A stretch of 33,723 nucleotides of DNA from Pseudomonadota bacterium (GTDB lineage: Bacteria; Pseudomonadota; Gammaproteobacteria; Burkholderiales; Burkholderiaceae_C). Below, piece by piece: positions 4,600-33,723 of this stretch (positions within the stretch are counted from its first letter, which is position 1; each line of letters starts with the position of its first letter). The notes beneath the pieces are model-generated. The model did not search any database and was not told the origin of the DNA. It saw only the letters and a list, made by a program, of their open reading frames with translations. Both the position numbers and the translations under genes were made by a program. Location of the stretch: contig JAJZEB010000025.1 of the NCBI GenBank assembly GCA_021805805.1, positions 1 to 33,723 on the forward strand, given 5' to 3'.

Positions 4600-5504
4600 G
4601 CCTGCGGCTCCGCGTCGGTCAGCAGGTGGCGGCCCGGTGCCGGATCCCAGGCGCCGAGGTCGCCGAGCGGAAAATCGCCGCCGACCGCGTAGGCAACGCG
4701 CTTGAAACGACCGGCCGCGGTGCTCGCCGGCAGCCCGGGGTCGATGCGTGCGCCGGGGTCGCTGCGCAGCAGGAACCCGCGCTTGAACTCGCCCTGGGTG
4801 ATTCCCCACTTCATCGCGAACGTGCGCGCGCCCTTGTTGCGCCGCACGCGGCCGGTGCTGCGGCACGCGAAGTGGTAGACGCGGCTGTCGCCGAGCACCT
4901 TGAAACGCCGGCAACCCGCGACCCACAGCTTCATCAGCAGGTCGTCGTCGGAACTCATGCCGGGGCCGAACTCGATGCTGTAGCCACCGACCATGTGCCA
5001 CCAGCGCCGGCTGATGACCGTCGGCTGCGACGCGCAGCCCCAGCGATCGCCGGCCGGCAGCCGGGAATGCTCGCGCGCGAAGCGCTGCGCGTCGAAAACA
5101 TCCGGCGTACGGCCGAAATCGTCGACCAGCACGAGTTCGTTGCCGGTGCCGCTCGGCTCGATCAGGGTCGACGACAGCAGCATCAGGTCGTCGTCGTGGC
5201 GCGCGATCTCGGCGGCGAACGCGGCGTCCCAGCCGGGGGCGCAGACCATGTCGTCGTTGAGGTAGACCAGCCACGGCTGGGTGGCTTGCGCGGCGAGCAG
5301 GTTCACGCTCAGGCAGACCCCGATATTGACGGGCGCGTGGATGTGGCGCAGGCGCTGCGCGCGCACCCAGTCCAGCGTGCCGTCGCTGCCGTCGTTGACG
5401 AGGACGATGATCTCGTGGTCGACGCTCGAGTTGCGGCGAATCGCGTCGACGCAGAGTTCCAGGTAGGCGAGGTTGTTCCAGCTCGGGATCAGGATGCTGA
5501 ACAT
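4596..5504 (-). CDS. Family 2 glycosyltransferase (O-antigen/core type)
   Basis: A 302-residue protein starting MFSILIPSWNNLAYLELC, a standard GT-A N-terminus. It continues with a nucleotide-binding VNDGSDGT block and a YLNDDM motif in place of DxD. The middle contains a GPGMSSDDDLLMKLW segment similar to the acceptor-side ED/DD motif of GT2 enzymes. ATG 5504 lies 10 bases after the stop of the O-antigen-ligase gene and the gene overlaps the next by four bases, so it sits inside one operon. The substrate is unknown. It probably acts on the cytoplasmic face of the inner membrane. Confidence 0.82.
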   Translation of the reverse strand: MFSILIPSWNNLAYLELCVDAIRRNSSVDHEIIVLVNDGSDGTLDWVRAQRLRHIHAPVNIGVCLSVNLLAAQATQPWLVYLNDDMVCAPGWDAAFAAEIARHDDDLMLLSSTLIEPSGTGNELVLVDDFGRTPDVFDAQRFAREHSRLPAGDRWGCASQPTVISRRWWHMVGGYSIEFGPGMSSDDDLLMKLWVAGCRRFKVLGDSRVYHFACRSTGRVRRNKGARTFAMKWGITQGEFKRGFLLRSDPGARIDPGLPASTAAGRFKRVAYAVGGDFPLGDLGAWDPAPGRHLLTDAEPQA

Positions 5505-8020: not shown

Positions 8021-9769
8021 ATGTTGCCCAATCCCCGTACTCTTTTGCTGGCGTGGTTCAACGCCCAGCCGCGCAACCGCGTCGCAGCGCTGCTCGTCGT
8101 GCTGTGCGCGGCGGTCGTCGCGATGACCGAGCCGGTGTTGCCGGCGCTGATGAAGCACGTGCTCGACGTCGGCTTCACGCCGCGGCGCGATTTCGCACTG
8201 TGGACCGTACCGGCCGTGCTGCTCGGGCTGTTCTCGGTGCGCGGCATCGCCTGGCTCGGGTCGCAGTTCCTGACGCAGTGGATCACGCAGAACGTGCTCG
8301 CGCGGGTGCGCACCCTGGTCTACGCACAGGTGCTGCACGCCGAGCTCGGTGTCTTGCAGCGCGAGAGCGCAAGCAGCCTGATCGGGGCATCGGTCTACGA
8401 AGCCCAGCAGGCGCTGGGCATGATCTTCCCCGGGCTGTTGACGCTGACGCGCGACACGCTGACGCTGACCGCGCTGTTCGGCTACCTGCTGTGGATCAAC
8501 TGGAGCCTGACGCTGCTGACGCTGGCCATCCTGCTGCCGCTGCTCGTGACGATGCGTGCGATCAGCCGCCGCGCGAAGCGGCTCAATGCGCAGATGCAAA
8601 AGGCCGCCGAGCAGGCCGCCTATGCGCTCGAGGAAGGCATGCTGGCGGCGCCGGTGATCCGCGTGCACAACGCGCAACCGACGTTCGCGGCGCGTTTCGA
8701 CCGCATGAACCAGGGGCTGCGGCGGATGACGGTGAAGGCGATGGTGTCGGGCTCGAGCACGACGCCGGTGTCGCAGTGGCTGTCGGCGCTCGCAGTGTCG
8801 GTGGTCATCGTCTACGCCTTGCACCAGGCGCAGCTGCCCGGGCGGCACAGCGTCGGCAGTTTCGTGTCGTTCATCACGTCGATGCTGATGACGCTGTCTC
8901 CGCTGCGACGCGTCTCCGACATCGTGCAGCCGATGATGCGCGCGATGTCGTCGCTCGACAGATTGCGCGGAATCATCGCGGCGCCGAAGGAGGCCGACAC
9001 CGGCCGGCACGCTGTGGCGCGTGCGCGCGGCGACATCGAATACGACTCGGTCGGCGTTCGCTTCGCCGGGCAGGACCGCGCGGTGCTCGACGGCGTCACG
9101 CTGCACGTGCGCGCCGGCGAGAGTCTGGCGCTGGTCGGACCGTCGGGGGCAGGCAAGACCACGCTGGTGCGGTTGCTGCCCCGCCTGCTCGAGCCCACCG
9201 GCGGATCGATCCGGCTCGATGGCGTGGCGCTGCGCGACTGGAGCCTGGCGGCGCTGCGGGCGCAGATCGCGCTGGTCAGCCAGGACGTGGTGCTGCTCAA
9301 CGACAGCGTCGGCGCCAATGTCAGCTTCGGCGACGCGGTCGACCCGGCGCGGGCCTGGGCCGCGCTGGAGGCGGCTGCGCTGGCCGAATTCGTGCGGGGA
9401 CTTCCAGGCGGGCTCGATGCACCGATCGGGCATAACGGCTCGCAGCTCTCCGGTGGACAGCGCCAGCGGCTGTCGATCGCGCGCGCGCTCTACCGCGACG
9501 CGCCGCTGCTGATTCTCGACGAGGCGACCAGCGCGCTCGACGCCGAGAGCGAGCGCCTGGTGCAGCACGCCGTCGACCGTCTGATGCGGGGGCGCACGAC
9601 CATCGTCATCGCGCACCGGCTGGCGACCATCGCGCATTGCAACCGCATCGCGGTGCTCGACGAGGGCAGGCTGGTCGAACTCGGCACGGAGGCCGAGCTC
9701 CTCGTCGCCGACGGCTTGTACGCGCAGCTGCACCGCATGCAGTTCCGCGAGCAGCAAGCAAGCGCTTGA
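8021..9769 (+). CDS. msbA: Lipid A export ABC transporter MsbA-like
   Basis: Half-transporter of 582 residues, the usual length for MsbA, which flips lipid A-core across the inner membrane using ATP. Six membrane helices occupy about residues 20-300. The nucleotide-binding domain has Walker A GPSGAGKT at about 373-380, a Q-loop VSQDVVLL, the ABC signature LSGGQRQR from about 476, Walker B LLILDEATS at about 495-503, and the switch histidine in VIAHRLA. It fits the neighbouring core and O-antigen genes: those enzymes build on lipid A-core and this pump moves the substrate to the periplasmic face where the ligase acts. The start is ATG 8021, with at most a weak ribosome-binding site. Confidence 0.9.
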   Translation: MLPNPRTLLLAWFNAQPRNRVAALLVVLCAAVVAMTEPVLPALMKHVLDVGFTPRRDFALWTVPAVLLGLFSVRGIAWLGSQFLTQWITQNVLARVRTLVYAQVLHAELGVLQRESASSLIGASVYEAQQALGMIFPGLLTLTRDTLTLTALFGYLLWINWSLTLLTLAILLPLLVTMRAISRRAKRLNAQMQKAAEQAAYALEEGMLAAPVIRVHNAQPTFAARFDRMNQGLRRMTVKAMVSGSSTTPVSQWLSALAVSVVIVYALHQAQLPGRHSVGSFVSFITSMLMTLSPLRRVSDIVQPMMRAMSSLDRLRGIIAAPKEADTGRHAVARARGDIEYDSVGVRFAGQDRAVLDGVTLHVRAGESLALVGPSGAGKTTLVRLLPRLLEPTGGSIRLDGVALRDWSLAALRAQIALVSQDVVLLNDSVGANVSFGDAVDPARAWAALEAAALAEFVRGLPGGLDAPIGHNGSQLSGGQRQRLSIARALYRDAPLLILDEATSALDAESERLVQHAVDRLMRGRTTIVIAHRLATIAHCNRIAVLDEGRLVELGTEAELLVADGLYAQLHRMQFREQQASA

Positions 9770-12354: not shown

Positions 12355-15828
<3,474 letters not shown>

Positions 15829-20855: not shown

Positions 20856-21035
20856 TTGGCCTCATGGGTTGGCCCGTTGAATTGGCCGGCGCGCGGGGAA
20901 CGGGCCATTCCTTTCGCCTTGCTCTGCGGCCTACATCATGAGCCTGATTAGCAGGGCCAATGCTTCGGGCCGCGCCAGGAATGGGCCATTGAAATGGCCC
21001 ATTTCGCCCAAATGGCCCATTCTTTTGGCCCATTC
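20856..21035. repeat. TTGGCC array and AATGGCCCATT inverted/direct repeats
   Basis: Part of a gene-poor stretch (20687-21496). TTGGCC occurs at 20856, 20869 and 20882, exactly 13 bases apart. AATGGGCCATT (20980-20990) and its perfect inverse AATGGCCCATT (20993-21003) are two bases apart. The same word recurs at 21011-21021, and GGCCCATTC at 21014-21022 is repeated at 21027-21035 across a TTTT spacer, again with 13-base period. The pattern suggests iterons, operator sites or a replication or packaging signal. No protein-coding explanation is convincing. Confidence 0.75.
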
Positions 21036-21045
21036 CCGAGGCCGG

Positions 21046-21470
21046 GTAACATCGTTTCCGCGAGGCGGCGATAGCTGGGTATCTGCAGTTTTCGGCCCAA
21101 TTTTGATGTTACTGCGGCGCGGCATTTCGACAGTAACGTACACAGCAGGCCACAGGAACTTCGACGGCCTTCGGATCGTGGTAACAGCACTTCGCTGGAA
21201 GGCTGCGGGCCTGCCCATCGCTGGCCCGGCGTCGACCAGGCCGATGAATGAGCCGCTGCTCTGACCTCCAGCGACGGTCGGCGCGGCTAGTCCGATCAGC
21301 GCCATGGACGGCTCCGTTTCCCTGTTGTCGCCGAGCCGTTGCAGCGCCACTCGGTTCAGCGGGCAACACCAGCTTCTCGCAGATTTCCGGTGTTACTCGG
21401 GCCGTCCATTTTTTCAGTAACGTGGGGAGCAGGTCCCTCACAGCCTCGGAGACCGTCGGTTTCTGGTAAC
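21046..21470. repeat. GTTAC/GTAAC box cluster with two diverged unit copies
   Basis: GTAAC or GTTAC occurs at 21046, 21108, 21133, 21181, 21392, 21417 and 21466. The boxes at 21108/21133/21181 and 21392/21417/21466 have matching spacings (25 and 73 versus 25 and 74 bases), and the bases between them align (for example AGTAACGT, then AGCAGG). These are two diverged copies of one unit of about 80 bases. GTAACATC (21046) and GATGTTAC (21105) form a perfect eight-base inverted repeat. On the minus strand both copies read as LL-x-TLL-x-K, but no complete gene results. Confidence 0.7.
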
Positions 21471-21496
21471 ACCGAATCGCCTCGGCATCGCGACCA

Positions 21497-21709
21497 TCAC
21501 CAGCCTCGGCACCGTCTGACTCGCACGGACGGAACAAAGTCGCGCGCGATGCGATCGATGCCGTCGAACAGCGATGGCTGGCGCTTCGCCACCACCGAAG
21601 CGCCCATCAGGAGCCGCCGGAGCGTAGACACAATGACCACGAGGTGCTCGCCCAGCTCGCGCACGTTCCAGTGGCTGAGGCCAGCGACCAAAGTTCCGTC
21701 GAAGTACAA
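21497..21709 (-). CDS. Possible small gene with TTG start
   Basis: A 70-residue frame beginning (TTG)YFDGTLVAGLSHWNVREL with strong third-position G/C bias throughout, which argues for real coding. An in-frame TGA lies just upstream, so the only usable start is TTG 21709, preceded at six bases by GAGGG. The palindrome GTACA-A-TGTAC covers this start. Helical, no membrane segment, no family recognised. It could instead be a surviving fragment of a longer gene after a frameshift. Confidence 0.4.
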   Translation of the reverse strand: MYFDGTLVAGLSHWNVRELGEHLVVIVSTLRRLLMGASVVAKRQPSLFDGIDRIARDFVPSVRVRRCRGW

Positions 21710-24112: not shown

Positions 24113-24319
24113 TCACGCAACCCCGGCCCACTCCTTCACTTCCTCCGCCAGCCAACGCTGCGTCTTGCCGCCAATGCGGCGCGCGCGCGGGAAGCCGGGT
24201 TGGTGGATCAGGCGATTGCGGACGTGCGAGTACGACAGGACTAGAAAGGCGGCGACGTCCTTGCAGGTCCACAGGACTTCGTCGCGGCGGACGCCAATCG
24301 GTAGATCTCTGGTTGCCAT
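24113..24319 (-). CDS. AlpA-like/excisionase-type DNA-binding protein
   Basis: A 68-residue protein with one winged helix-turn-helix domain: WTCKDVAAFLVLSYSHVRNRLIHQPGFPRARRIGGKTQRWLAEEVKEW. The pattern (helix, SYSHVRN recognition helix, PGFP turn, then K/R-rich wing and W helix) matches AlpA/HTH_17 regulators that control excision or transcription in P4-like and other integrated elements. AAGGAG precedes ATG 24319 at a good distance. The gene starts four bases after the upstream stop. No integrase lies next to it in this window. Confidence 0.82.
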   Translation of the reverse strand: MATRDLPIGVRRDEVLWTCKDVAAFLVLSYSHVRNRLIHQPGFPRARRIGGKTQRWLAEEVKEWAGVA

Positions 24320-24929: not shown

Positions 24930-25610
24930 TCATCCTCCGCGCAGCTTGTCCTCCTTGATCAGCGCGGCCATCATGAACAGACCTTGGTCGCTGAGCCCTG
25001 CGCTTTGTTGCGGCGTCATCTCGCCGAGGTTTTGCACTAGGTCGGCCGGGGTGACAATGCCGCCCGTTCCCTCGTAGACCTTGAGTGCGTCGTCAAAAGC
25101 AGACTTCATGCGCGGCTCGGTATCGAGTCGGCCGAGGTCGTCGGCGACGCCGAGCACCTGCAGCGCGATCTGGCGCAGCGGCACGCGGTAGCCCTTGAGC
25201 TTGAGCGCCTCCGCCGTAATTCCGAGGTATCGAAGCTCGCCGGTTGTTGGGTAGCCGCTTATTGCTCCACGCATGAGCTCGCACAGGCCGGCAGTGTCGG
25301 ACCAACTGACCATTGAACTCGAAGCCGCTTTGACGTCGTCGCTGGTCTCCTCGCAGGTGCTCATCGGCCTGTCCGCCACGGCCGCCGCTGGAGCACTGCT
25401 GCCTGACGCGATCTGAGGGGCGGACGACTTCGCCGAGTGCGATCCACCGAAGATGCTGCTCAACGCCCACAGCAGCAGAGCCGCCCCGACGACGACCGAG
25501 AAACACCCTGCTGCTGGCTTCTTGGTCGGGCTCGCAGCACCGCAGTGTGGGCACGCTTTCGCCTCGGTGCTGACCTCTTTGCCGCACTCGCGGCACTTCG
25601 TGAGCGCCAT
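24930..25610 (-). CDS. Zinc-ribbon membrane protein
   Basis: A 226-residue protein with an N-terminal zinc ribbon (Cys6, Cys9, Cys20, Cys23 in CRECGKEVSTEAKACPHCG), one membrane helix at about 35-55 (GCFSVVVGAALLLWALSSIFGG), a Ser/Ala-rich linker, and a soluble helical domain of about 150 residues at the C-terminus. The ribbon would lie in the cytoplasm and the large domain outside if the positive-inside rule holds. ATG 25610 is preceded by GGGGGA. It is divergent from the small membrane protein gene at 25704. Function unknown; the layout resembles sensors or anchors in defence and stress cargo. Confidence 0.7.
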   Translation of the reverse strand: MALTKCRECGKEVSTEAKACPHCGAASPTKKPAAGCFSVVVGAALLLWALSSIFGGSHSAKSSAPQIASGSSAPAAAVADRPMSTCEETSDDVKAASSSMVSWSDTAGLCELMRGAISGYPTTGELRYLGITAEALKLKGYRVPLRQIALQVLGVADDLGRLDTEPRMKSAFDDALKVYEGTGGIVTPADLVQNLGEMTPQQSAGLSDQGLFMMAALIKEDKLRGG

Positions 25611-25703
25611 CGCATCCCCCTGTCGAACGTAGGTCGCCCGGAATCGATCCGTGCGGCGTACCTGAGAATCTGCCTGTGAACGGCCTATGACGTGAGGGAT
25701 GCT

Positions 25704-25982
25704 ATGACGAAGCTGCGGGTTTGTGCCACATGGATCAGCGTGCTGCTGGGGGCGGTGTCCGCGTTCTGCTGGTGGCGATCGGCAGTTACGAGAGTGCCGC
25801 ACTTTGCTGGCGCGGACACGAGCGGCGCCTACGCTGATGGCTCATTTGCCGCCGACGGTGCCGATCTCGTCCGAACGATCCGCCTGCAGTCCAAGTGGAA
25901 CCGCTGGGCCGCAATCGCCGCCTCCGGTGCCGCGATCGCCGCCGCGGTCGCCCAGACGGTCAGCGCGATCGACCCGAACTGA
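25704..25982 (+). CDS. Small two-helix membrane protein
   Basis: A 92-residue protein starting MTKLRVCATWISVLLGAVSAF. A hydrophobic helix at about 7-27 ends in CWW, a polar loop contains GADTSGAYADGSFAADG, and a second Ala-rich hydrophobic helix covers about 70-90. GAGG lies six bases before ATG 25704. CTATGACG is repeated at 25685 and 25702 around this start, the first copy forming a two-codon frame (ATG ACG TGA). Family not recognised. It lies upstream of and in the same direction as the Mrr-type gene, separated by the first set of 10-base-period repeats. Confidence 0.6.
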   Translation: MTKLRVCATWISVLLGAVSAFCWWRSAVTRVPHFAGADTSGAYADGSFAADGADLVRTIRLQSKWNRWAAIAASGAAIAAAVAQTVSAIDPN

Positions 25983-26005
25983 CCCACTGGCGCCACGCGG
26001 CGAGC

Positions 26006-26158
26006 GTCAGGTTTTGTCAGGTAGTTCCGCCGAACCCCGCGACGCATGCGCGCGCCAGCGGCAGCGTGAAAAACCGTGACCTACCGGCGTCGCATCGCGG
26101 CAGCGCCGTGCATGCGCACCTCGCCTTGACAGAGTGCGCAACCTCAGCATTTCTCAGC
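26006..26158. repeat. Paired short direct repeats, 10-base period (left of Mrr gene)
   Basis: GTCAGG-TTTT-GTCAGG (26006-26021), CGTGA-AAAAC-CGTGA (26065-26079) and CTCAGC-ATTT-CTCAGC (26143-26158). In each pair the second copy starts exactly ten bases after the first and the spacer is A/T-rich. The words differ between pairs. They fill the gene-free stretch 25983-26247 between the small membrane protein and the Mrr-type gene. Confidence 0.85.
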
Positions 26159-26247
26159 CTCGGTGCGGCGGCCATAACATCGCGCATGCGGCGCCCGGGC
26201 GAGCGCTGCGGTTACGCGCACCCTTCGCATCTATCGGAATCGAGGAC

Positions 26248-26853
26248 ATGGGACGTCGATCGCGTGGCAACGAGGCTCTGATCGCGCTGGCGGTGGGTGT
26301 CGGCGCGCCGATCTACGGCGTCACTTGGCTGTACGAGCATGACCCCTGGGCCATCGTGCTTGTCGTCGTGGCCGTCGTGGTCGCGATCGTCGCCTACGTT
26401 CGCCATAGGCAAGAGCAGCTGAGGCGGTTCGATCCTTCGGCCGTCGACGTCTGGACGCTGAGCCCGACCCAGTACGAGCAGTACTGCGCGACCATCCTGA
26501 ACAAGTTCGGCTGGCGCACCACGCTCACGAAGACTTCCGGCGATCACGGTGTCGACATCGTGGCCGAGCTGGGCGCGGTGAAGGTCGCCATCCAGATCAA
26601 GCAGTATCGCAAGCGCGTCGGCAATGCGGCGGTCCAACAGGTGGTTGCCGGCAAGGCGGTGTATCGCTGCACCGCTGCGGTTTGCGTGGCCCCGAATGGG
26701 TTTACCCAGGGCGCCGAGCAACTGGCTCGAGCGAATGGCGTGCTGCTCATGGAGCATCGCGACCTTCCCGGCCTGGCGCGGCGTCTCGGACTCCGGAACG
26801 TCGCGGTCGAAGCTGACGGCGCCCAGAACCCAGGATCTCGAGTCGTTCGGTAG
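26248..26853 (+). CDS. Membrane-anchored Mrr-type restriction endonuclease
   Basis: A 201-residue protein starting MGRRSRGNEALIALAVGVG. Two hydrophobic segments (about 11-30 and 36-53) form an N-terminal membrane anchor, then a charged linker RHRQEQLRRF. The Mrr_cat PD-(D/E)xK domain covers about 70-180: LSPTQYEQYCATILNKFGW, the active-site strand SGDHGVDIV, and QIKQYRKRVGN, where Gln stands in the Glu position as in Mrr enzymes. The family cuts modified or foreign DNA. The start ATG 26248 has a close GAGG; ATG 26134 is possible but less protein-like. Repeat-rich gene-free DNA flanks it on both sides, which fits independently acquired cargo. Confidence 0.85.
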   Translation: MGRRSRGNEALIALAVGVGAPIYGVTWLYEHDPWAIVLVVVAVVVAIVAYVRHRQEQLRRFDPSAVDVWTLSPTQYEQYCATILNKFGWRTTLTKTSGDHGVDIVAELGAVKVAIQIKQYRKRVGNAAVQQVVAGKAVYRCTAAVCVAPNGFTQGAEQLARANGVLLMEHRDLPGLARRLGLRNVAVEADGAQNPGSRVVR

Positions 26854-26900
26854 CGCGGCTTCCTGCACGGCGCGCGGCGCAACGCGACCCACCACGCCAA

Positions 26901-27104
26901 GGCTAGTTTTGGCTAGCAGTCTCGCGGCTCAAAACTGAGCCGTGAGATCGGACCGTCGTGCACGCGCGCCTCTGCGGCGACCTCAACATTCTTCAACAAC
27001 CGGGCGGCGCCGCCGGCAACGCAGAACCATAACTTTCCATAACAGCCAGCGCCGAAGCCCATAGCACACGCGCGTACCGCTATCGAAACCGGAGTTTTCC
27101 GGAG
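26901..27104. repeat. Four paired hexamer direct repeats, 10-base period (right of Mrr gene)
   Basis: GGCTAG-TTTT-GGCTAG (26901-26916), TCAACA-TTCT-TCAACA (26983-26998), CCATAAC-TTT-CCATAAC (27027-27043) and CCGGAG-TTTT-CCGGAG (27089-27104). All have a ten-base period and T-rich spacers. Two are followed by CAGT, and the GTCAGG pair on the other side of the Mrr gene is followed by TAGT. I see no convincing gene in 26854-27422, so these repeats are its main content. Confidence 0.88.
26925..26942. repeat. Perfect hairpin CGGCTCA-AAAC-TGAGCCG
   Basis: A seven-base perfect inverted repeat with a four-base loop, eight bases after the GGCTAG pair. It has no T-run on either strand, so it is not a typical terminator. 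It may be an operator or an RNA hairpin. Confidence 0.75.
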
Positions 27105-27262
27105 CAGTCGCGCGCCGGCACTTGGGCGCATCCCATTGCGGTGACAAGTCGGATTTCAAAGCGCACTTTCGATCTCGGCAGCAAAGGCCATTTCTGGCTT
27201 TCGCTCCGGCGCCAGCTCGCGGCATGCGTAGGTGGCGCCACCGCGGCCCGTCTGCGTGCGCA

Positions 27263-27289
27263 GAAAAAGGTTCGAAACCGTGCTTTTTC
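27263..27289. repeat. Nested inverted repeat GAAAAAG...CTTTTTC
   Basis: GAAAAAG (27263-27269) and CTTTTTC (27283-27289) are inverted, and between them GGTT-CGA-AACC (27269-27279) is a second inverted repeat. It lies in the gene-free stretch downstream of the HGG-protein genes on the minus strand and could stop their transcript, but the stem is A/T-rich and weak. Confidence 0.5.
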
Positions 27290-27422
27290 GTTATCAGCGG
27301 CGTCGGACCCCACGACGCGCGACCGGCGGCCCGATCGACCTGGGCGGTGCTGCCCAAGACGGGCGAATGGGGCGCGTCCAATTTTGGCGAGTGCTTTGAA
27401 ATCAACGAGTTGCCGGCGCTGC

Positions 27423-27791
27423 TCACTTCGGCCGGTTCTGCACCAGGTTGGCCAGCGCGCGGGCTCGGCCTTCGTCGGTCTTCGGCCCGCTCGACGCGCC
27501 GCCATGCAGCCGACAGCGCCAGCCGTTGCCCGAGCCGAGCGCGATGCACAGCGTGCCGCGGCGGGTCCTGGCCAGGCACAGGTCGCCGTCAGTGCGCTCG
27601 ATCTTCTCCAGCAGCTTGCGGCCGCGCCCCTCGGCGGGATCGAAGCCAGCAGCGCGCACACGGTCGGCCGCCCAAGACTGCATGCGCTCCTGCTCGGCGA
27701 TCTCGGCCATGCGCTGCGCGAGGCGGCGCTGATATTCGGGGCTCGCCTCGATCTCGGCCCTCATACGGTCGTAGCTTGAAAGTCGCGCCAT
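27423..27791 (-). CDS. HGG-motif small protein, downstream paralogue
   Basis: A 122-residue protein starting MARLSSYDRMRAEIEASPEY. A charged helical N-terminus leads to a compact Cys/His domain: LCLARTRRGTLCIALG, then RCRLHGGASSGPKTDEGRARA. The pattern Cys ... Cys ... Cys-x2-His-Gly-Gly suggests a metal-binding knuckle, and the HGG-x-S-x-GP-x-T-x-x-G tail is a motif I recall in many small phage and prophage proteins of unknown function. More than half of the residues in this core are identical to the upstream neighbour, so the two arose by duplication. The ATG lies two bases after the neighbour's stop. Confidence 0.75.
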   Translation of the reverse strand: MARLSSYDRMRAEIEASPEYQRRLAQRMAEIAEQERMQSWAADRVRAAGFDPAEGRGRKLLEKIERTDGDLCLARTRRGTLCIALGSGNGWRCRLHGGASSGPKTDEGRARALANLVQNRPK

Positions 27792-27793
27792 GG

Positions 27794-28189
27794 TCAGGAG
27801 CCCACCTCAATGCGCGTGGGGTCGGGAATTTGGCCGCACGAGGACTTTCCCTCCCACCTCTTGACCCTGGCCAGCGCCAGAGCCGCCATTGCCCGCGCCT
27901 TGCCGCTGGCCGTCCTCGGTCCGGTGGACTGGCCGCCGTGGTTCTTGCAGCGGCCGCCGGCGCCGTCGCCCAGGGCGATGCACGGTGAACCCTTGCGGGT
28001 CCTGGCCTTGCACAGCCCGAGACCGGCTTTCTCCATCTTGCGCATCAGCAGCCATGCGCGATCTTCGTTCGGGTCGATGCCGGCCGCGCGCAGCTCGTCC
28101 TCGATCCAGCCGTTGCCGGCGGCGATGGCCGGGTGCACGCCGCGCAGGATGGCTGCAAGCGCTGCGGTCGGAAGGTCACAAATCGCCAT
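27794..28189 (-). CDS. HGG-motif small protein, upstream paralogue
   Basis: A 131-residue protein starting MAICDLPTAALAAILRGVHP. The core LCKARTRKGSPCIALG, then RCKNHGGQSTGPRTASGKARA, matches the downstream paralogue position by position, including all three cysteines, the His-Gly-Gly and the GP-x-T. The region before the core (ELRAAGIDPNEDRAWLLMRK) is also related (RVRAAGFDPAEGRGRKLLEK). The N-terminal ends differ. CGGAG precedes ATG 28189 by seven bases. Possibly a nucleic-acid binding protein, given the basic metal-knuckle composition, but this is inference. Confidence 0.75.
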   Translation of the reverse strand: MAICDLPTAALAAILRGVHPAIAAGNGWIEDELRAAGIDPNEDRAWLLMRKMEKAGLGLCKARTRKGSPCIALGDGAGGRCKNHGGQSTGPRTASGKARAMAALALARVKRWEGKSSCGQIPDPTRIEVGS

Positions 28190-28501: not shown

Positions 28502-28659
28502 CGGCGCCAGCTCCGGTGCAGGCGCGGGGCGTACGAGGCGCTGCGCCTGGCGACCTCGGCGTTGCGCAGCGCGGCGGCCGAGTGCTTGGCACGCCACCAG
28601 GCGTAGCGAGCGCACCAGGCACGCCACGCGAACCGCAGCGCACTGCGGAGTGCCTTCAT
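28498..28659 (-). CDS. Very small basic protein between tape measure and next gene
   Basis: A 53-residue, strongly basic, Trp/Ala/Arg-rich frame (MKALRSALRFAWRAWCARYA ...). It overlaps the tape measure stop by four bases (ATGA) and the next start by four bases (ATGA), the same coupling seen along the rest of this operon, which is the main reason to accept it. The N-terminal 25 residues form an amphipathic helix. It could be a membrane-active peptide or a simple translational relay. I do not recognise it. Confidence 0.5.
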   Translation of the reverse strand: MKALRSALRFAWRAWCARYAWWRAKHSAAALRNAEVARRSASYAPRLHRSWRR

Positions 28660-31600
28660 GGCCGCGCTCCCGCCAGTAGGCCGCCCGGCCGCATTTCCTG
28701 CAGCATGATCTGGCGAACGTGCTCGCCGACCATCATGCCCAGCGACTGTTGCGCGGCGTTGCCGTTGCCGCTCATCGCGGACATGCCGTTGTGCTGCACC
28801 GTGACGTTGACGTTTCCGTTGAAGTTCGACTGGTGACCGGCCAGGGCTCCCGAGCGGATCGCGTCGGCGCCCTTCTTCGGCACGATCATTTCGCCCTGGT
28901 GGATCTGCGCCACCATGTCGTGCGGCACGTAGTCGGCGCCGGCGGCGAAGCTGCTGCCGATGCTTGCGAGCCACGAACCGATCCCGCTCCAGAAACCATT
29001 CGACGCAACGGTGCTGGATGACGAGGTGTAGGCGCTGGGGTTGTTGTAGACCTGCCCGCCGGTCGTGTACGCGCCGGTGCCGTTGTTCGACGACGCGAAC
29101 ATGCCGCCGAGCCACCCGCTGACGCCAGCTCCCATCATCTTGCCGATCTGGCCCACGCCGCCCATGCTGCGCAGCGCTGAGCCGCCGGGCGTTCCCGCGC
29201 CCATCATCCCCTGCATCAGACCCTGCGCGAGCTGCTGGCTCATGGTCTGCATCATGGTGTTGGCCAGCGACTGGAAGAACGCCTCCAACTGCTGGCGCAT
29301 GGTCTTCTGGTGCTTCATCAGGCCGTCGAACAGCCCGGCGAAGGCGCTCTCGAAGCCGTTGTAGATCTTCTGCTGGAACTGGGTGAGGCCGTCGCCGTAG
29401 CGCTTGAGCCCGACGATCAGGGTGTCGATGGTCGTGGTGGACTGCCCGGCCTGCTGCTCGAGCTGCTTGACCGCCTCCGCTGCCTGCAGGATGCCCGGCG
29501 CGGCCGCGCGCTGGTCCGCCAGCGTCCGCTGCTGCGCTTGGTCGGGCGTGAGCACGCCGGCAGTCACGAGAGCCGCGTTGTACTTGGCCTTGCTCGAGAG
29601 CGCGCTTTGCAGCCCCGAGAGATTGGCCTTCGCCTGCTGCAGTTGCATCTGCAGGGCCTTCTTGCGCCCGATGGCCTGCGCCTGGGGCGCGAGAGCTCGC
29701 GTGGCCGGGTCGGTGCTCGATGCGAGTTGCGAGGCGACCTGATCCCAGTGCTGCTGCACCGCCTGCGGCGAATCGTGCTGCTGGGTTGATTGCAACTGCG
29801 CGAGCGCGCGGTCGATTGGCGCCTGCGCCGCCCGCGCCTCTGCGGCAGCCTGCTGGCTCGCACGGTGCAGATCCTGCAGGCCCCAGCCCGCGGCCAGCTC
29901 CTGCGGAGTCTGCGCGCGCTTGTGGGCAGCGCCCCCTGCCGCCACGCCGCCGAGCTGCAGCGGGTTGCCGCCGGGGATATGGGTGGCCTGCATGCGCTTG
30001 AGCAGGTCGGCGAATGCCAGCTCCTCCGGCGACGGCCCGGGCGACGTGTGGGCACCGGGCGGCATCCATCGCTTGCCGGCCGGCATCTTCGTGCCCCAGG
30101 GCGTGTAGCCATTGGCCACCAGGGCGTCGGCCTGAGCCTTCTTCGCGGCAAGCGACCTGCGCTCGCCGACATCCAGCGTGGTCGAGTGCAGCAGCAGGTA
30201 CGCCGGCAGGAACACGCGCTTCACCAGGAACGACGCGATCTCGCCGAGCGTCGTGCCGGCGAAGTCCAGCGCCTCGCCCATGCGGGTGGACAAGCTCTTT
30301 GCCGCGGCGATCGCCGTGTCGCCGAAGCTGAACAGTCGCTTGGCCGCCCAGATGCCACCGTTCGTGATCAGCTTGAATGCGCTGATCACTGGCTTGTCGA
30401 AGCCCATGAACCGGCCAAATCCCTGGAAGACCATCAGCGCACTGCCTACGGCGCCCCCGAGTTCCACGAAGAAGCTGATGACCTTGTGGTTCTGGGCGAA
30501 CCGTCCGAACCACGCTGCGGCCCGATTGATCTCACCGACGAACTTGGTCAGCGCTGGGATCACCGTCACTCCCAGCGCCAGCCCGAGGTTTTCGAGCTGA
30601 TGGTGCAGCACGTCCATGCGGCCGGCGAAGGTCTTCTGGATCTCGGCATTGATCTGCGAGGGCGACTGAACCGATCGCATCTGCTGCGCGTCTGCATGGA
30701 TCGCTGCGGCCGATGCCGGGTTGCCGAGGATCGACAGGCCCGAGCCCAGCGTCTGGCCGCCCACGCGCATCTTGCTGAGGTAGCCCGAGAGAATCGCGAT
30801 TGCGTTGGCCGCCTGCTCGATGTTGTTCAGATCTTTGGTCGAGCCGGAGTGGTAGCCGAACGTCTTCCAGTTCTGCCGGGTGTAGGCCAGCATGCGCGGG
30901 ATCATGATCTTCTGCACCCAGTCCGCAGTGTCGTTCTGCGCCATCGGCGCATCGAGGAGCGCCCCCGGCGCCAGCACCGCCATCGTGCTGCTCTTGCCGT
31001 AGGGCGTGATCGCCTTCGCGTCGACGAGGCCAATCTGCCGCATCAGCTCGGCGCCGGCCTTGGTGATCATGCCGCCATAGCTCATCTGCAGGATGGCGTT
31101 GAGCAGCGTGGCGCCCCTGGTGTTGCCGCCGGCGCCACCGCCGCCTGCCGACTTGAAGGTCTCCAGCAGCGCCATCTCGTTGCTGAAGGCGTGCATGCTC
31201 ATGGTGGTCGTCGCGGCCCGGTTGCGTGTGCGCAGGTACGTCTCGATCGACTGCAGATTGAGCTTGCCGCCGCCGCCCACCATCGCGTTGGACAGCGCGA
31301 CCATGACCGCGTGCGCCCGCTGCTTGTTGGACGCGCCGCCCATCGCGTCGACCACCCCGAAGATGTTCTGGATGCGATGCTCCAGCGAGCTTCGATCGCC
31401 GCCGATGTACTTGGCGGCCGCGGCAACCTGCAGCGCCAGCGGCATCAGTTGGGCGCGCATGTCCTGCGAGTACTTCGAGTTGCCCGGAAGCCCGGGGATG
31501 CTCGCCAGGTTCGCCTTGAGCGTGTCGTTGACGCTGTACAGCGGGTTCTCGCGTGCCTGCTGCCGTGCACGCTGCACGATTGCCTGCTGCTCGCCGGGCG

Positions 31601-32132
31601 GCAGGTTGCGCACCTGCAGGCGCAGCAGCGTCTGCTGATAGGTGGACGCGGCGCTGACGGTGCGCTTGAGTCCCTCCTCGATCTTCAGACCGGCCCAGAT
31701 CTCGGCCATCCCACGCAGCGCCGCACTCATGCTGCTGATGTGCCCGGTCGCCTCGCGCGTCTTCACGCCCGCCATCTCGATGCGATCCGAGGCGACGCCG
31801 ATCGCGCCGGCCGCCTCCCTCGCGCCGGCGGTGGCTTCGCGCATCCCCGCGCTCAATCCCGTCAGGCCGTCGACCGAGGTGCGCAGCGCTGCCTCGAACG
31901 CGCCCAGCCGCTCGCCGATGGCGCTGACGGCTTCGACCAGGCGGTTGCCGCCGGCGCTGGCCTTGTCCGACGCGGTGCCGAGAGAATCGATGCGGCGCCC
32001 CAAGATGGCGAGTTGGTCGTTCAGCGGGCGCACCGAGCGCGCCATGTTGGCCAGCAGGTCCTGGATCGACCGCAGCCCGGGGCTGGCGCCGTCCAGCAGC
32101 GTTAGGCGCATCGAAACGTTCATTTCGCTCAT
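28656..32132 (-). CDS. Phage tail tape measure protein
   Basis: A 1158-residue protein. Its length sets tail length in long-tailed phages; at roughly 0.15 nm per residue, a textbook rule, it would suit a tail of about 170 nm. The N-terminal 150 residues are repetitive coiled coil, the middle (about 500-600) has hydrophobic helices such as FFVELGGAVGSALMVF, and a second coiled coil runs about 730-900. The C-terminus has the Gly/Ala/Ser-rich region and the motif ADYVPHDMVAQIHQGEMIVPKKGADAIRSG, split here as in lambda-type tape measure C-termini. No tail tube, chaperone or tip gene lies beside it, which is abnormal. The start is ATG 32132, or 32123. Confidence 0.88.
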   Translation of the reverse strand: MSEMNVSMRLTLLDGASPGLRSIQDLLANMARSVRPLNDQLAILGRRIDSLGTASDKASAGGNRLVEAVSAIGERLGAFEAALRTSVDGLTGLSAGMREATAGAREAAGAIGVASDRIEMAGVKTREATGHISSMSAALRGMAEIWAGLKIEEGLKRTVSAASTYQQTLLRLQVRNLPPGEQQAIVQRARQQARENPLYSVNDTLKANLASIPGLPGNSKYSQDMRAQLMPLALQVAAAAKYIGGDRSSLEHRIQNIFGVVDAMGGASNKQRAHAVMVALSNAMVGGGGKLNLQSIETYLRTRNRAATTTMSMHAFSNEMALLETFKSAGGGGAGGNTRGATLLNAILQMSYGGMITKAGAELMRQIGLVDAKAITPYGKSSTMAVLAPGALLDAPMAQNDTADWVQKIMIPRMLAYTRQNWKTFGYHSGSTKDLNNIEQAANAIAILSGYLSKMRVGGQTLGSGLSILGNPASAAAIHADAQQMRSVQSPSQINAEIQKTFAGRMDVLHHQLENLGLALGVTVIPALTKFVGEINRAAAWFGRFAQNHKVISFFVELGGAVGSALMVFQGFGRFMGFDKPVISAFKLITNGGIWAAKRLFSFGDTAIAAAKSLSTRMGEALDFAGTTLGEIASFLVKRVFLPAYLLLHSTTLDVGERRSLAAKKAQADALVANGYTPWGTKMPAGKRWMPPGAHTSPGPSPEELAFADLLKRMQATHIPGGNPLQLGGVAAGGAAHKRAQTPQELAAGWGLQDLHRASQQAAAEARAAQAPIDRALAQLQSTQQHDSPQAVQQHWDQVASQLASSTDPATRALAPQAQAIGRKKALQMQLQQAKANLSGLQSALSSKAKYNAALVTAGVLTPDQAQQRTLADQRAAAPGILQAAEAVKQLEQQAGQSTTTIDTLIVGLKRYGDGLTQFQQKIYNGFESAFAGLFDGLMKHQKTMRQQLEAFFQSLANTMMQTMSQQLAQGLMQGMMGAGTPGGSALRSMGGVGQIGKMMGAGVSGWLGGMFASSNNGTGAYTTGGQVYNNPSAYTSSSSTVASNGFWSGIGSWLASIGSSFAAGADYVPHDMVAQIHQGEMIVPKKGADAIRSGALAGHQSNFNGNVNVTVQHNGMSAMSGNGNAAQQSLGMMVGEHVRQIMLQEMRPGGLLAGARP

Positions 32133-32480: not shown

Positions 32481-32643
32481 GGCGCACCTCCTGCGCGGCA
32501 AGGTTGAGCTTCAAGTGCCACAGCGCGGTCAGGCGCGCGGCGAGGGCAGTGCGGCGGCGATCGTCTCGGCGGCGCCGACGCGGTGGGGTTGCGAGCTGGG
32601 CGCGGGCTTGGCGCATCTCGGTCTCGATGGCGGTGGGCGTCAT
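32470..32643 (-). CDS. Very small arginine-rich protein
   Basis: A 57-residue protein starting MTPTAIETEMRQARAQLATP, with an Arg-rich stretch (PPRRRRRDDRRRTALAARL) followed by an amphipathic helix. The ATG overlaps the helicase gene's stop by four bases (ATGA), so translation is coupled. Strong positive charge suggests nucleic-acid contact, perhaps aiding the helicase, but nothing proves it. Confidence 0.6.
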   Translation of the reverse strand: MTPTAIETEMRQARAQLATPPRRRRRDDRRRTALAARLTALWHLKLNLAAQEVRREA

Positions 32644-33723
32644 GCCGTGGTCCTCTGGCTGAACTCCACAAACTGCACGCACTTGCGCCGCGGCGAATCG
32701 CAGAACTGCTGCGCACCGCGGTGCAGCCACAGCGGGATCGACCGATCCTGCACGTCGCCGTTGCGCTGCTTGGTCAGGCGCAGGCGGCCGTCCGGCTTCG
32801 ATGCGTCGTAGTCGCTGGCGTCCGGGTCGTTCTTCGCGCTCCACACGCTGAGCACGTTGTCGGCGCCATCCGTGATCTTGGAGCTGCCGGCGACGTCCAT
32901 CTTCCCGGGCTCGCGGCTCTCGTCAGCGCCCTTGCGGGGATGCGCCACCAGGTGGACGTGCACGCCGTGGCGCTTGGCGAAATCGGCGATCAACTGGACT
33001 GCCTTCTTCTGCGCCGAGAACGCGCCGGGCCCGTCCTCGGGCACGTCGACCATCATCAGGCTGTCGATCACGAACTGGTCGCAGCCGTACCGGCGGTTCG
33101 CGTAGGCGAACACCTCGAGTAGGCGTTCGAGCTTGGCCGAGCCAACCGTGGCCACAACCCACACACGCTCGCCCAGCCACGCGCCGATCGCGTCGATGTA
33201 GGCCGGCGTCGGGCGGTCGGTGCCGCTGGCCTGCTTGATCATCCGCTTGGCCTGCATCGCCGGCTGCATCTCGCCGCTGAAGACGCACCAGCGCGCGCCC
33301 ATGTGCGCCGTCTGCAGCGCCACCTGGGACAGCGCCAGGCTCTTGCCGTGGCCGTTGATGCCCGTCCAGACCGTGAACTCGCCGCGGCGGAACCGCAGCC
33401 AGTCGTGCGTCGTCGCGCCGATGCTCAGCGGATAGCTGCCATCGTCATCGGCGCCCGGCGCCGGGTAGAACATCGCCTTGACCAACGCCGTGAAGTCGTT
33501 GATCGACTGCAGCTCGGCAGGGTCGACGGGCTTGGCTGCCTTGATCGCCTCCCAGAAGAACTCGCCGTCCTCGCCCGCCTGCAGGGCCTCGTTCGCATCC
33601 TTGTAGCCGGGGAAGGTCGCGATGCGGCACCGCTCGAAACCCAGCCGCCGCGCGACCTCCTGCGCGCCCTTGCGGCCGGCGTCGTCGGCGTCGTAGGCAA
33701 TCACGATGTCGCTGAAAGATCGG
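32640..33723 (-). CDS. Toprim/DnaB-like primase-helicase, cut by window edge
   Basis: About 360 C-terminal residues of a longer protein; the N-terminus lies beyond the right edge. The visible part opens with the end of a toprim domain (DIVIAYDADDAGRKGAQEVARRLG), which in primases binds metal. A DnaB/T7 gp4-like RecA-fold helicase follows: Walker A TGINGHGKSLAL, then VFSGEM, Walker B FVIDSLMMVD and the LVAHPRKGAD segment with a likely arginine or sensor residue. Such proteins prime and unwind replication forks in phages and plasmids. It is the most upstream visible gene of the tape measure operon, an unusual partner. Confidence 0.88.
   Translation of the reverse strand, partial: RSFSDIVIAYDADDAGRKGAQEVARRLGFERCRIATFPGYKDANEALQAGEDGEFFWEAIKAAKPVDPAELQSINDFTALVKAMFYPAPGADDDGSYPLSIGATTHDWLRFRRGEFTVWTGINGHGKSLALSQVALQTAHMGARWCVFSGEMQPAMQAKRMIKQASGTDRPTPAYIDAIGAWLGERVWVVATVGSAKLERLLEVFAYANRRYGCDQFVIDSLMMVDVPEDGPGAFSAQKKAVQLIADFAKRHGVHVHLVAHPRKGADESREPGKMDVAGSSKITDGADNVLSVWSAKNDPDASDYDASKPDGRLRLTKQRNGDVQDRSIPLWLHRGAQQFCDSPRRKCVQFVEFSQRTTA

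Follow-up and report, generated by a model that had tools for sequence, protein, structure and literature searches.

What are the short direct repeats that occupy the two spacers around an mrr-like gene, and why does the repeated word change from one to the next while the spacing stays fixed? The original prediction, made on the DNA referred to here as the window (the whole stretch that was analysed, 33,723 nucleotides), had described six perfect pairs of 6–7 bases in the mrr spacers, all with a period of ten and T-rich cores, and all six are present where it placed them. A seventh pair, of five bases, has the lag of ten that was claimed for it, but its T core lies on the opposite strand (CGTGA-AAAAC-CGTGA). 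The words do differ from site to site as described, except that TCA is common, in register, to four of the seven, a sharing that is not significant (four or more sites in 2,795 of 20,000 random draws). The spacers and their sites are as follows.

25983..26247, no strand assigned: spacer 1, with sites 26006, 26065 and 26143; clear coding periodicity absent
26006..26022, minus strand: twin site GTCAGG-TTTT-GTCAGGT (17-mer); the 17-mer also occurs in terS genes and satellites
26065..26079, plus strand: twin site CGTGA-AAAAC-CGTGA; orientation inverted with respect to the other six
26143..26158, minus strand: twin site CTCAGC-ATTT-CTCAGC; minus-strand reading AAAPRLRNAEVAHSVK; TerS profile rank 5 of 54,778
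26854..27180, no strand assigned: spacer 2, with sites 26901, 26983, 27027 and 27089; clear coding periodicity absent
26901..26916, minus strand: twin site GGCTAG-TTTT-GGCTAG; by-eye translation of the minus strand gives RLLAKTSL
26919..26947, no strand assigned: strong hairpin TCTCGCGGCTCAAAACTGAGCCGTGAGA, its loop AAAA, immediately following site 26901
26983..26998, minus strand: twin site TCAACA-TTCT-TCAACA; minus-strand reading GAARLLKNVEVAAEAR; TerS profile rank 2 of 54,778
27027..27043, minus strand: twin site CCATAAC-TTT-CCATAAC; resembles a phiAH14b site, with a chance-level E-value
27089..27104, minus strand: twin site CCGGAG-TTTT-CCGGAG; minus-strand reading AGARLLRKTPVSIAVR; TerS profile rank 1 of 54,778

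All seven direct repeats in 25983–26247 and 26854–27180 (word of at least five bases, spacer of 2–6) have a lag of 10 and an A/T core. In 20,000 dinucleotide-preserving shuffles of both spacers, two A/T-core lag-10 pairs arose four times and more than two never; with any core allowed, four lag-10 pairs were reached in one shuffle of 20,000, and when the best lag from 8 to 30 could be chosen, the maximum over 1,500 shuffles was four pairs. In a control of 60 stretches from the same assembly, covering 697,420 of its 3,268,226 bases, 15 lag-10 A/T-core pairs were found, the nearest two at least 1.6 kb apart, a density that by simple arithmetic predicts about 0.02 pairs per 0.83 kb. Sixteen further loci, mostly related prophages of the genus, contain eight such pairs in 203,568 bases; an open frame encloses at least one of these pairs, that of L098. 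Neither the shuffles nor the 697-kb control therefore show such pairs at an equal frequency, the outcome that had been named as fatal to the observation, and the array is non-random and local.

Rfam has no match in either spacer, and promoter and terminator scans of 25600–27450 returned none. The suggestion that one spacer duplicates the other was rejected: shuffled spacers align as well as the real ones, whose score is 80 (ten highest of 300 shuffles: 93–105), and the numbers of common 6- to 8-mers, equalled in 31, 160 and 308 of 500 shuffles, are not significant. A repeated "GCCGRACCCCRYGACG" motif has about the frequency of its reversed control in 28 genomes, a 29-base match in another genome (G047) lies, by eye, inside an apparent gene, and a consensus, STCAVSNTTYNTCAVS, was derived from the sites themselves, so that the placement of four of its six own-genome matches in the locus is circular. 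The hairpin at 26919–26947 is an A/T run with an inverted, not a direct, repeat on its flanks. A second repeat field is located in the same element at 20860–21530, with TGGCCCATTC-TTT-TGGCCCATTC at 21013 (period 13) and AAATGGCCCATT at 20992, repeated with a lag of 18; inspection by eye adds several GTTACT / AGTAAC words.

In its right part the window resembles a prophage, and the genes around the array are listed here.

24113–24319: RDF-like protein; phrog_66, "excisionase and transcriptional regulator", E 6.9e-6
24930–25610: zinc-ribbon protein
25704..25982, plus strand: small ORF of 92 aa, a membrane protein by reading; phrog_14357, E 4.4e-6
26248..26853, plus strand: Mrr-type restriction endonuclease-like protein of 201 aa; Pfam Mrr_cat, E 2.6e-21
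27423–28189: two HGG_STG proteins
28656–32132: tape-measure-like protein; phrog_1716, E 1e-11
32640–33704: primase/helicase; phrog_239, E 4.8e-77

Of the gene set expected of a P4-like satellite (integrase, AlpA/RDF and primase, without structural genes), the window has a primase/helicase and an RDF-like protein, but a tape-measure-like protein is present as well, and the contig stops at 33723; among the window ORFs scanned, up to this contig end, no integrase was found. The related prophage of genome G010 matches to 25750 and resumes at about 27167, so that mrr and all of the sites constitute an indel between the two. The first ~16 codons of the small ORF at 25704..25982 align to the G010 prophage, where the remainder of the ORF is missing, and because G010 retains these codons, loss there is as likely as gain in the window. 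The two best relatives are without the entire mrr/site segment; empty sites with one copy of the word are therefore not visible in them. Close relatives of the Mrr-like protein occur only in genome G004 and a contig titled Thiomonas sp. (83–84%), with distant ones in 14 further genomes. The relative at 8463–8714 of L041 (G004), also seen in L044, is truncated by the contig end, and no lag-10 pair of six or more bases lies beside the G004 mrr copy.

Some words of the array do recur elsewhere. The 17-mer of site 26006 is present in at least 120 IMG/VR stretches and, within the host family, in one of 399 genomes, the window's own. Among the matches listed, it falls within an ORF for the terminase small subunit, TerS, in 84 of 120 IMG/VR loci (80 of 120 by clustering). 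One representative of these ORFs matches PHROG 51, the terminase small subunit (E 7.6e-35), and one representative of the adjoining ORF family is the terminase large subunit (E 1.2e-37); the TerS model started from that single TerS protein and was then extended through the three locus sets in rounds of protein similarity. Eight annotated records, from seven phages, contain the full 17-mer, in terS genes or satellites throughout: the terS genes of Enterococcus phage EG-TP1, Lactobacillus phage phig1e and Morganella phage IME1369_01, and the four satellites phiAH14b and Streptococcus Javan391, Javan396 and Javan408. At an E-value of 3 the number of these matches is unremarkable; it is their location that is remarkable. 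In Javan391 (L510, 11009–11025) and Javan408 (L511, 4621–4637), the 17-mer is placed in a hypothetical gene beside a primase.

Two patterns extended the comparison. The class II pattern, built from sites 26143 and 26983, found 83 IMG/VR stretches, 80 of them taken as loci, and its word lies within TerS in 55 of these 80. The class I pattern, which derives from sites 26901 and 27089 and leaves four bases free, is looser and served as a control; it gave at least 120 matches, and among the matches listed one of 120 was a full twin and one of 120 lay within TerS. The words of sites 26901 and 27089 were thus not found in terS, and this outcome counts against reading the sites as packaging-initiation (pac) sites, since the pattern was drawn from window sites and yet gave almost no twins and almost no TerS. 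Among the best 40 of 156 matching annotated records, site 26983 was found in the terS genes of two Staphylococcus phages, the remaining rows being mostly shorter or unrelated matches; the terS gene of Staphylococcus phage SA97 holds the whole 16-mer of the site.

Three phages in which its position was read have the site 121–154 bases past the terS start. A second such site within 1.5 kb is absent in 86 of the 120 loci with the 17-mer, among the matches listed, and the raised pair density near the 17-mer is not particular to lag 10, being found at lags 8 and 11 too. After removal of the seed, 200 viral loci found by the site patterns show no clear enrichment of lag 10. Twins were counted in 101 of 145 TerS ORFs and in 30 of 600 control ORFs, but this comparison was discarded as circular, the loci having been picked by the site. 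PF03592 has no match in the host assembly. The words of 26006, 26143 and 26983 thus occur inside terS genes of tailed phages, 27089 is terS-like by protein profile only, and 26065, 26901 and 27027 rest on likeness of form.

The suggestions of micro-duplication and of an insertion footprint are not supported, since unrelated phages have the same words in their terS genes and satellites have them too. A process that leaves word–T-tract–word scars would produce perfect words of varying sequence, as observed, but not identical words at a similar terS position in unrelated phages, and the genome sample contains such pairs at background level only. We regard such an origin as very improbable.

Within terS the site coincides with codons that specify a conserved peptide motif (NLTKPD, LLRNVEV and similar), and for this reason a coding explanation needs weighing: a pattern that back-translates the TerS motif matches terS genes for coding reasons alone. 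A set of TerS genes chosen without regard to the site was used, comprising 29 PF03592 genes from 26 of 299 host-family genomes. A lag-10 A/T-core twin is present in four of the 29, compared with 0.47 expected from synonymous reshuffling, and all four twins fall on the same peptide motif. The twin is absent from the other 25, and counts at other lags are one (lag 8), four (lag 9, the same as lag 10) and two (lag 11). An alignment of the 29 proteins shows the motif throughout, and a profile of 16 residues made from them was scanned over the window in six frames, at 54,778 positions. Site 27089 ranks first, 26983 second and 26143 fifth; the remaining sites rank 886 (26006), 440 (26065), 2835 (26901) and 1170 (27027), and the RLLAKTSL frame of site 26901 was outside the scan, a stop lying just upstream. 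In phiAH14b, ranks 1 and 2 of the same profile fall on twin sites as well. The best twin sites of L376 rank 10 and 12, and the 17-mer of satellite Javan391 ranks 4.

Three window sites thus resemble terS when read as protein, and 26006 is identical to terS DNA, so that four of the seven match terS-borne sequence or the TerS motif. Each window site could be a functionless terS fragment, with the twin a codon by-product of the TerS motif; three of the sites do read as TerS-motif peptides on one strand, and the motif is one that 29 aligned proteins share. Such relics would, however, have to be seven short fragments apart from one another, of which six form perfect twins of 6–7 bases, and synonymous reshuffling of real terS genes yields fewer twins than are seen. 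In addition, both copies tend to change together in the non-coding arrays described below. An origin as relics is therefore unlikely in our judgement. Since the window spacers are outside any terS gene, the sequence would be kept there for something besides that protein.

Multi-word arrays were also found in phiAH14b-like satellites, and the fullest arrays found are those of phiAH14b and similar elements. One stretch from the class II IMG/VR scan, L332, contains 19 close direct repeats with differing words and lags of 10–13 within 1.2 kb. Host-genome stretches reach up to 14 pairs per 1.2 kb when lags 9–13 are pooled, mostly at lags 9 and 12, and the 19 repeats of L332 must accordingly be read with lags 10, 11 and 13. 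L332 shares homology with L289 and with the non-coding end of Pseudomonas phage phiAH14b. In the non-coding region of phiAH14b, one twin is identical to site 26006 and one resembles 27027; the latter agreement, 19 of 21 bases, has an E-value of 10, which is chance level, and ranks behind unrelated matches. The phiAH14b paper has the word "repeat" once and neither "intergenic" nor "direct repeats" (PMC4936722).

Nineteen further elements, some on contigs of 48–56 kb, were gathered through the phiAH14b helicase. In the densest 2 kb of the 20 elements, words of at least seven bases occur 33, 39, 21, 42 and 35 times at lags 9 to 13, and five and eight times at lags 8 and 14, counts that are partly circular in that the windows were picked for lags 9–14. 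Joint change of the two copies was followed in eight elements with at least eight twins in their densest 2.4 kb, out of 15 of the 20 examined, at orthologous sites located through their flanks; the cells are not independent. A cell is a base of a word that is not the same in two elements. For lag-10 words with an A/T core, 24 of 57 cells show one and the same change in both copies (12 of 34 distinct states), compared with 13 of 148 (13 of 128) in control stretches that match by chance. Other twin classes show no joint change above the control (18 of 153 cells, 15 of 135 distinct states). Examples in which both copies changed are TGTAAGG/TGTCAGG, TGTCAGG/TCTCAGG and TGACAGG/TGTCAGG. The lag-10 A/T-core class, which is the window's class, thus tends to hold twin identity while the word alters.

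These elements contain other twins as well. D-type twins (xxxGAC-AGGC-xxxGAC-GGAT) are located at 5389–5790 of L332, 8001–8540 of L304 and 14957–15790 of L366, spaced ~130 bases apart in L304 and L332, and several have, by eye, a reverse-complement copy of the word ~110 bases downstream. G-type twins (GGTATCCAC, GGTTTCCAC, GGTTCGCAC; lag 12–13), found at 14207–14730 of L366 and in relatives, resemble replication iterons, yet with several words.

Twin sites at one helical turn are also what a phage regulator such as an excisionase/RDF would bind, and the array could consist of ordinary operators of this kind. Apl operators are six bases long and stand as direct repeats at 10–11 bp spacing (PMC7498355), and the prophage has a candidate regulator in the RDF-like protein at 24113–24319 (phrog_66, E 6.9e-6). 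Of 13 twins in P4 (word of at least seven, lags 9–14), six are annotated iterons or attP arms, which keeps an operator function alive; P4 shows no array of the kind seen here. A single regulator needs a common word, whereas the window sites differ in theirs, their shared TCA is not significant, and no one consensus word at 10–11 bp runs through them as in Apl/RDF operators. Placement within terS genes is also left unexplained. We consider operators an improbable answer.

A protein that reads the spacing and the T core was the nearest of the three ideas in the original prediction: the words of 26006, 26143 and 26983 match terS DNA, and lag-10 copies tend to change together in phiAH14b-like elements. 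We lean towards the view that the array is a set of pac-type packaging-initiation sites of different phages, recognised by TerS, through which the carrier would be packaged or would act as a decoy. The array sites would be of the kind found inside the terS genes of some tailed phages with Terminase_2/PHROG-51-type TerS: a twin word, the copies one helical turn apart, with an A/T core between them. The helix-turn-helix domains of a TerS ring could grip two equal half-sites over a bendable A/T core, and TerS would bind the array sites in this way. The remaining sites would be of the same kind as the four terS-like ones, each word would fit the TerS of a different phage, and through a non-coding array of many words several phages would recognise the carrier, which would then be packaged or act as a TerS decoy.

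That the sites serve purely to hold the TerS of invading phages and hinder packaging, with Mrr as a second defence gene, is in our estimate rather doubtful. The nuclease between the spacers, which by reading of its sequence has an N-terminal membrane segment, does resemble defence-system nucleases in PADLOC (ZorD, E 1.5e-15). The fullest arrays, however, are in phiAH14b and its kin, and phiAH14b, in which its authors found no terminase gene, is considered by them to be a satellite that uses phiAH14a capsids (PMC4936722); this dependence fits packaging better.

The published record on packaging sites bears on both sides of the pac reading. Headful packaging is described as starting at pac, which is recognised by TerS (PMC9611059, PMC4737164). 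The pac site of P22 is given as 22 bp within the TerS gene (PMC9611059), and that of SPP1 as direct repeats at the start of terS, the related SF6 having a different repeat pair (PMC4737164, PMC9611059). The DNA-binding domain of SF6 TerS is reported there to have no sequence preference for pac, with repeats of little effect (PMC4737164), attempts to detect binding of P22 TerS to pac are reported to have failed, and the mode of TerS–DNA binding is called unclear and controversial (PMC9611059). In 50 of the 55 kb of phiAH14a, the helper of phiAH14b, no lag-10 A/T-core twin was found, and its terminase region, in which terS is unannotated, has no shared word of 13 or more bases among the matches listed. 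Over this 50 of 55 kb, the one known helper thus shows no site of the kind that phiAH14b carries. The published TerS–pac binding results and the phiAH14a helper result count against the pac reading, as do the 25 of 29 terS genes that lack the twin, the equal count at lag 9, the low profile ranks of four window sites, the host assembly with no PF03592 match, the 86 of 120 listed 17-mer loci with no second site and the raised pair density at lags 8 and 11.

A broader proposition is that satellites and some prophages may hold a library of packaging tags, in which each word would be the TerS site of another phage, a single element would travel in capsids made by many phages unrelated to one another, and "any word, twice, one helical turn apart, with an A/T core" would be the recognition code of one class of TerS. 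We put it forward tentatively, with less than even confidence. Were the arrays such libraries, their words would supply a testable recognition rule, helper phages would be predictable from satellite DNA, and a single mobile element would be seen to hedge over many phages. Among titles and the starts of abstracts, in a partial coverage of the literature, there is no description of arrays of different packaging sites.

Helper-dependent satellites (SaPI/PICI, P4) carry the packaging signal of their helper. Unlike their packaging sites, those of the window element would comprise many different words in one element. Similar to the terS-borne sites discussed here, the pac sites of P22 and SPP1/SF6 are located in or at the start of terS; they differ in being described as the phage's own site, whereas the window has seven different sites in spacers outside terS (PMC4737164, PMC9611059). 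Apl/RDF operators share the six-base direct repeats 10–11 bp apart but follow one consensus, with five in a row at att or seven at pR-pL (PMC7498355). Like the window spacers, the non-coding region of phiAH14b (KU708005) contains many-word twin sites, one of them that of 26006 and one close to 27027; the difference is that phiAH14b has additional G-type (lag 12–13) and D-type (lag 10–11) twins, of which the window spacers have none. The proposed arrangement would be new, and the kind of signal, a packaging site, is already known.
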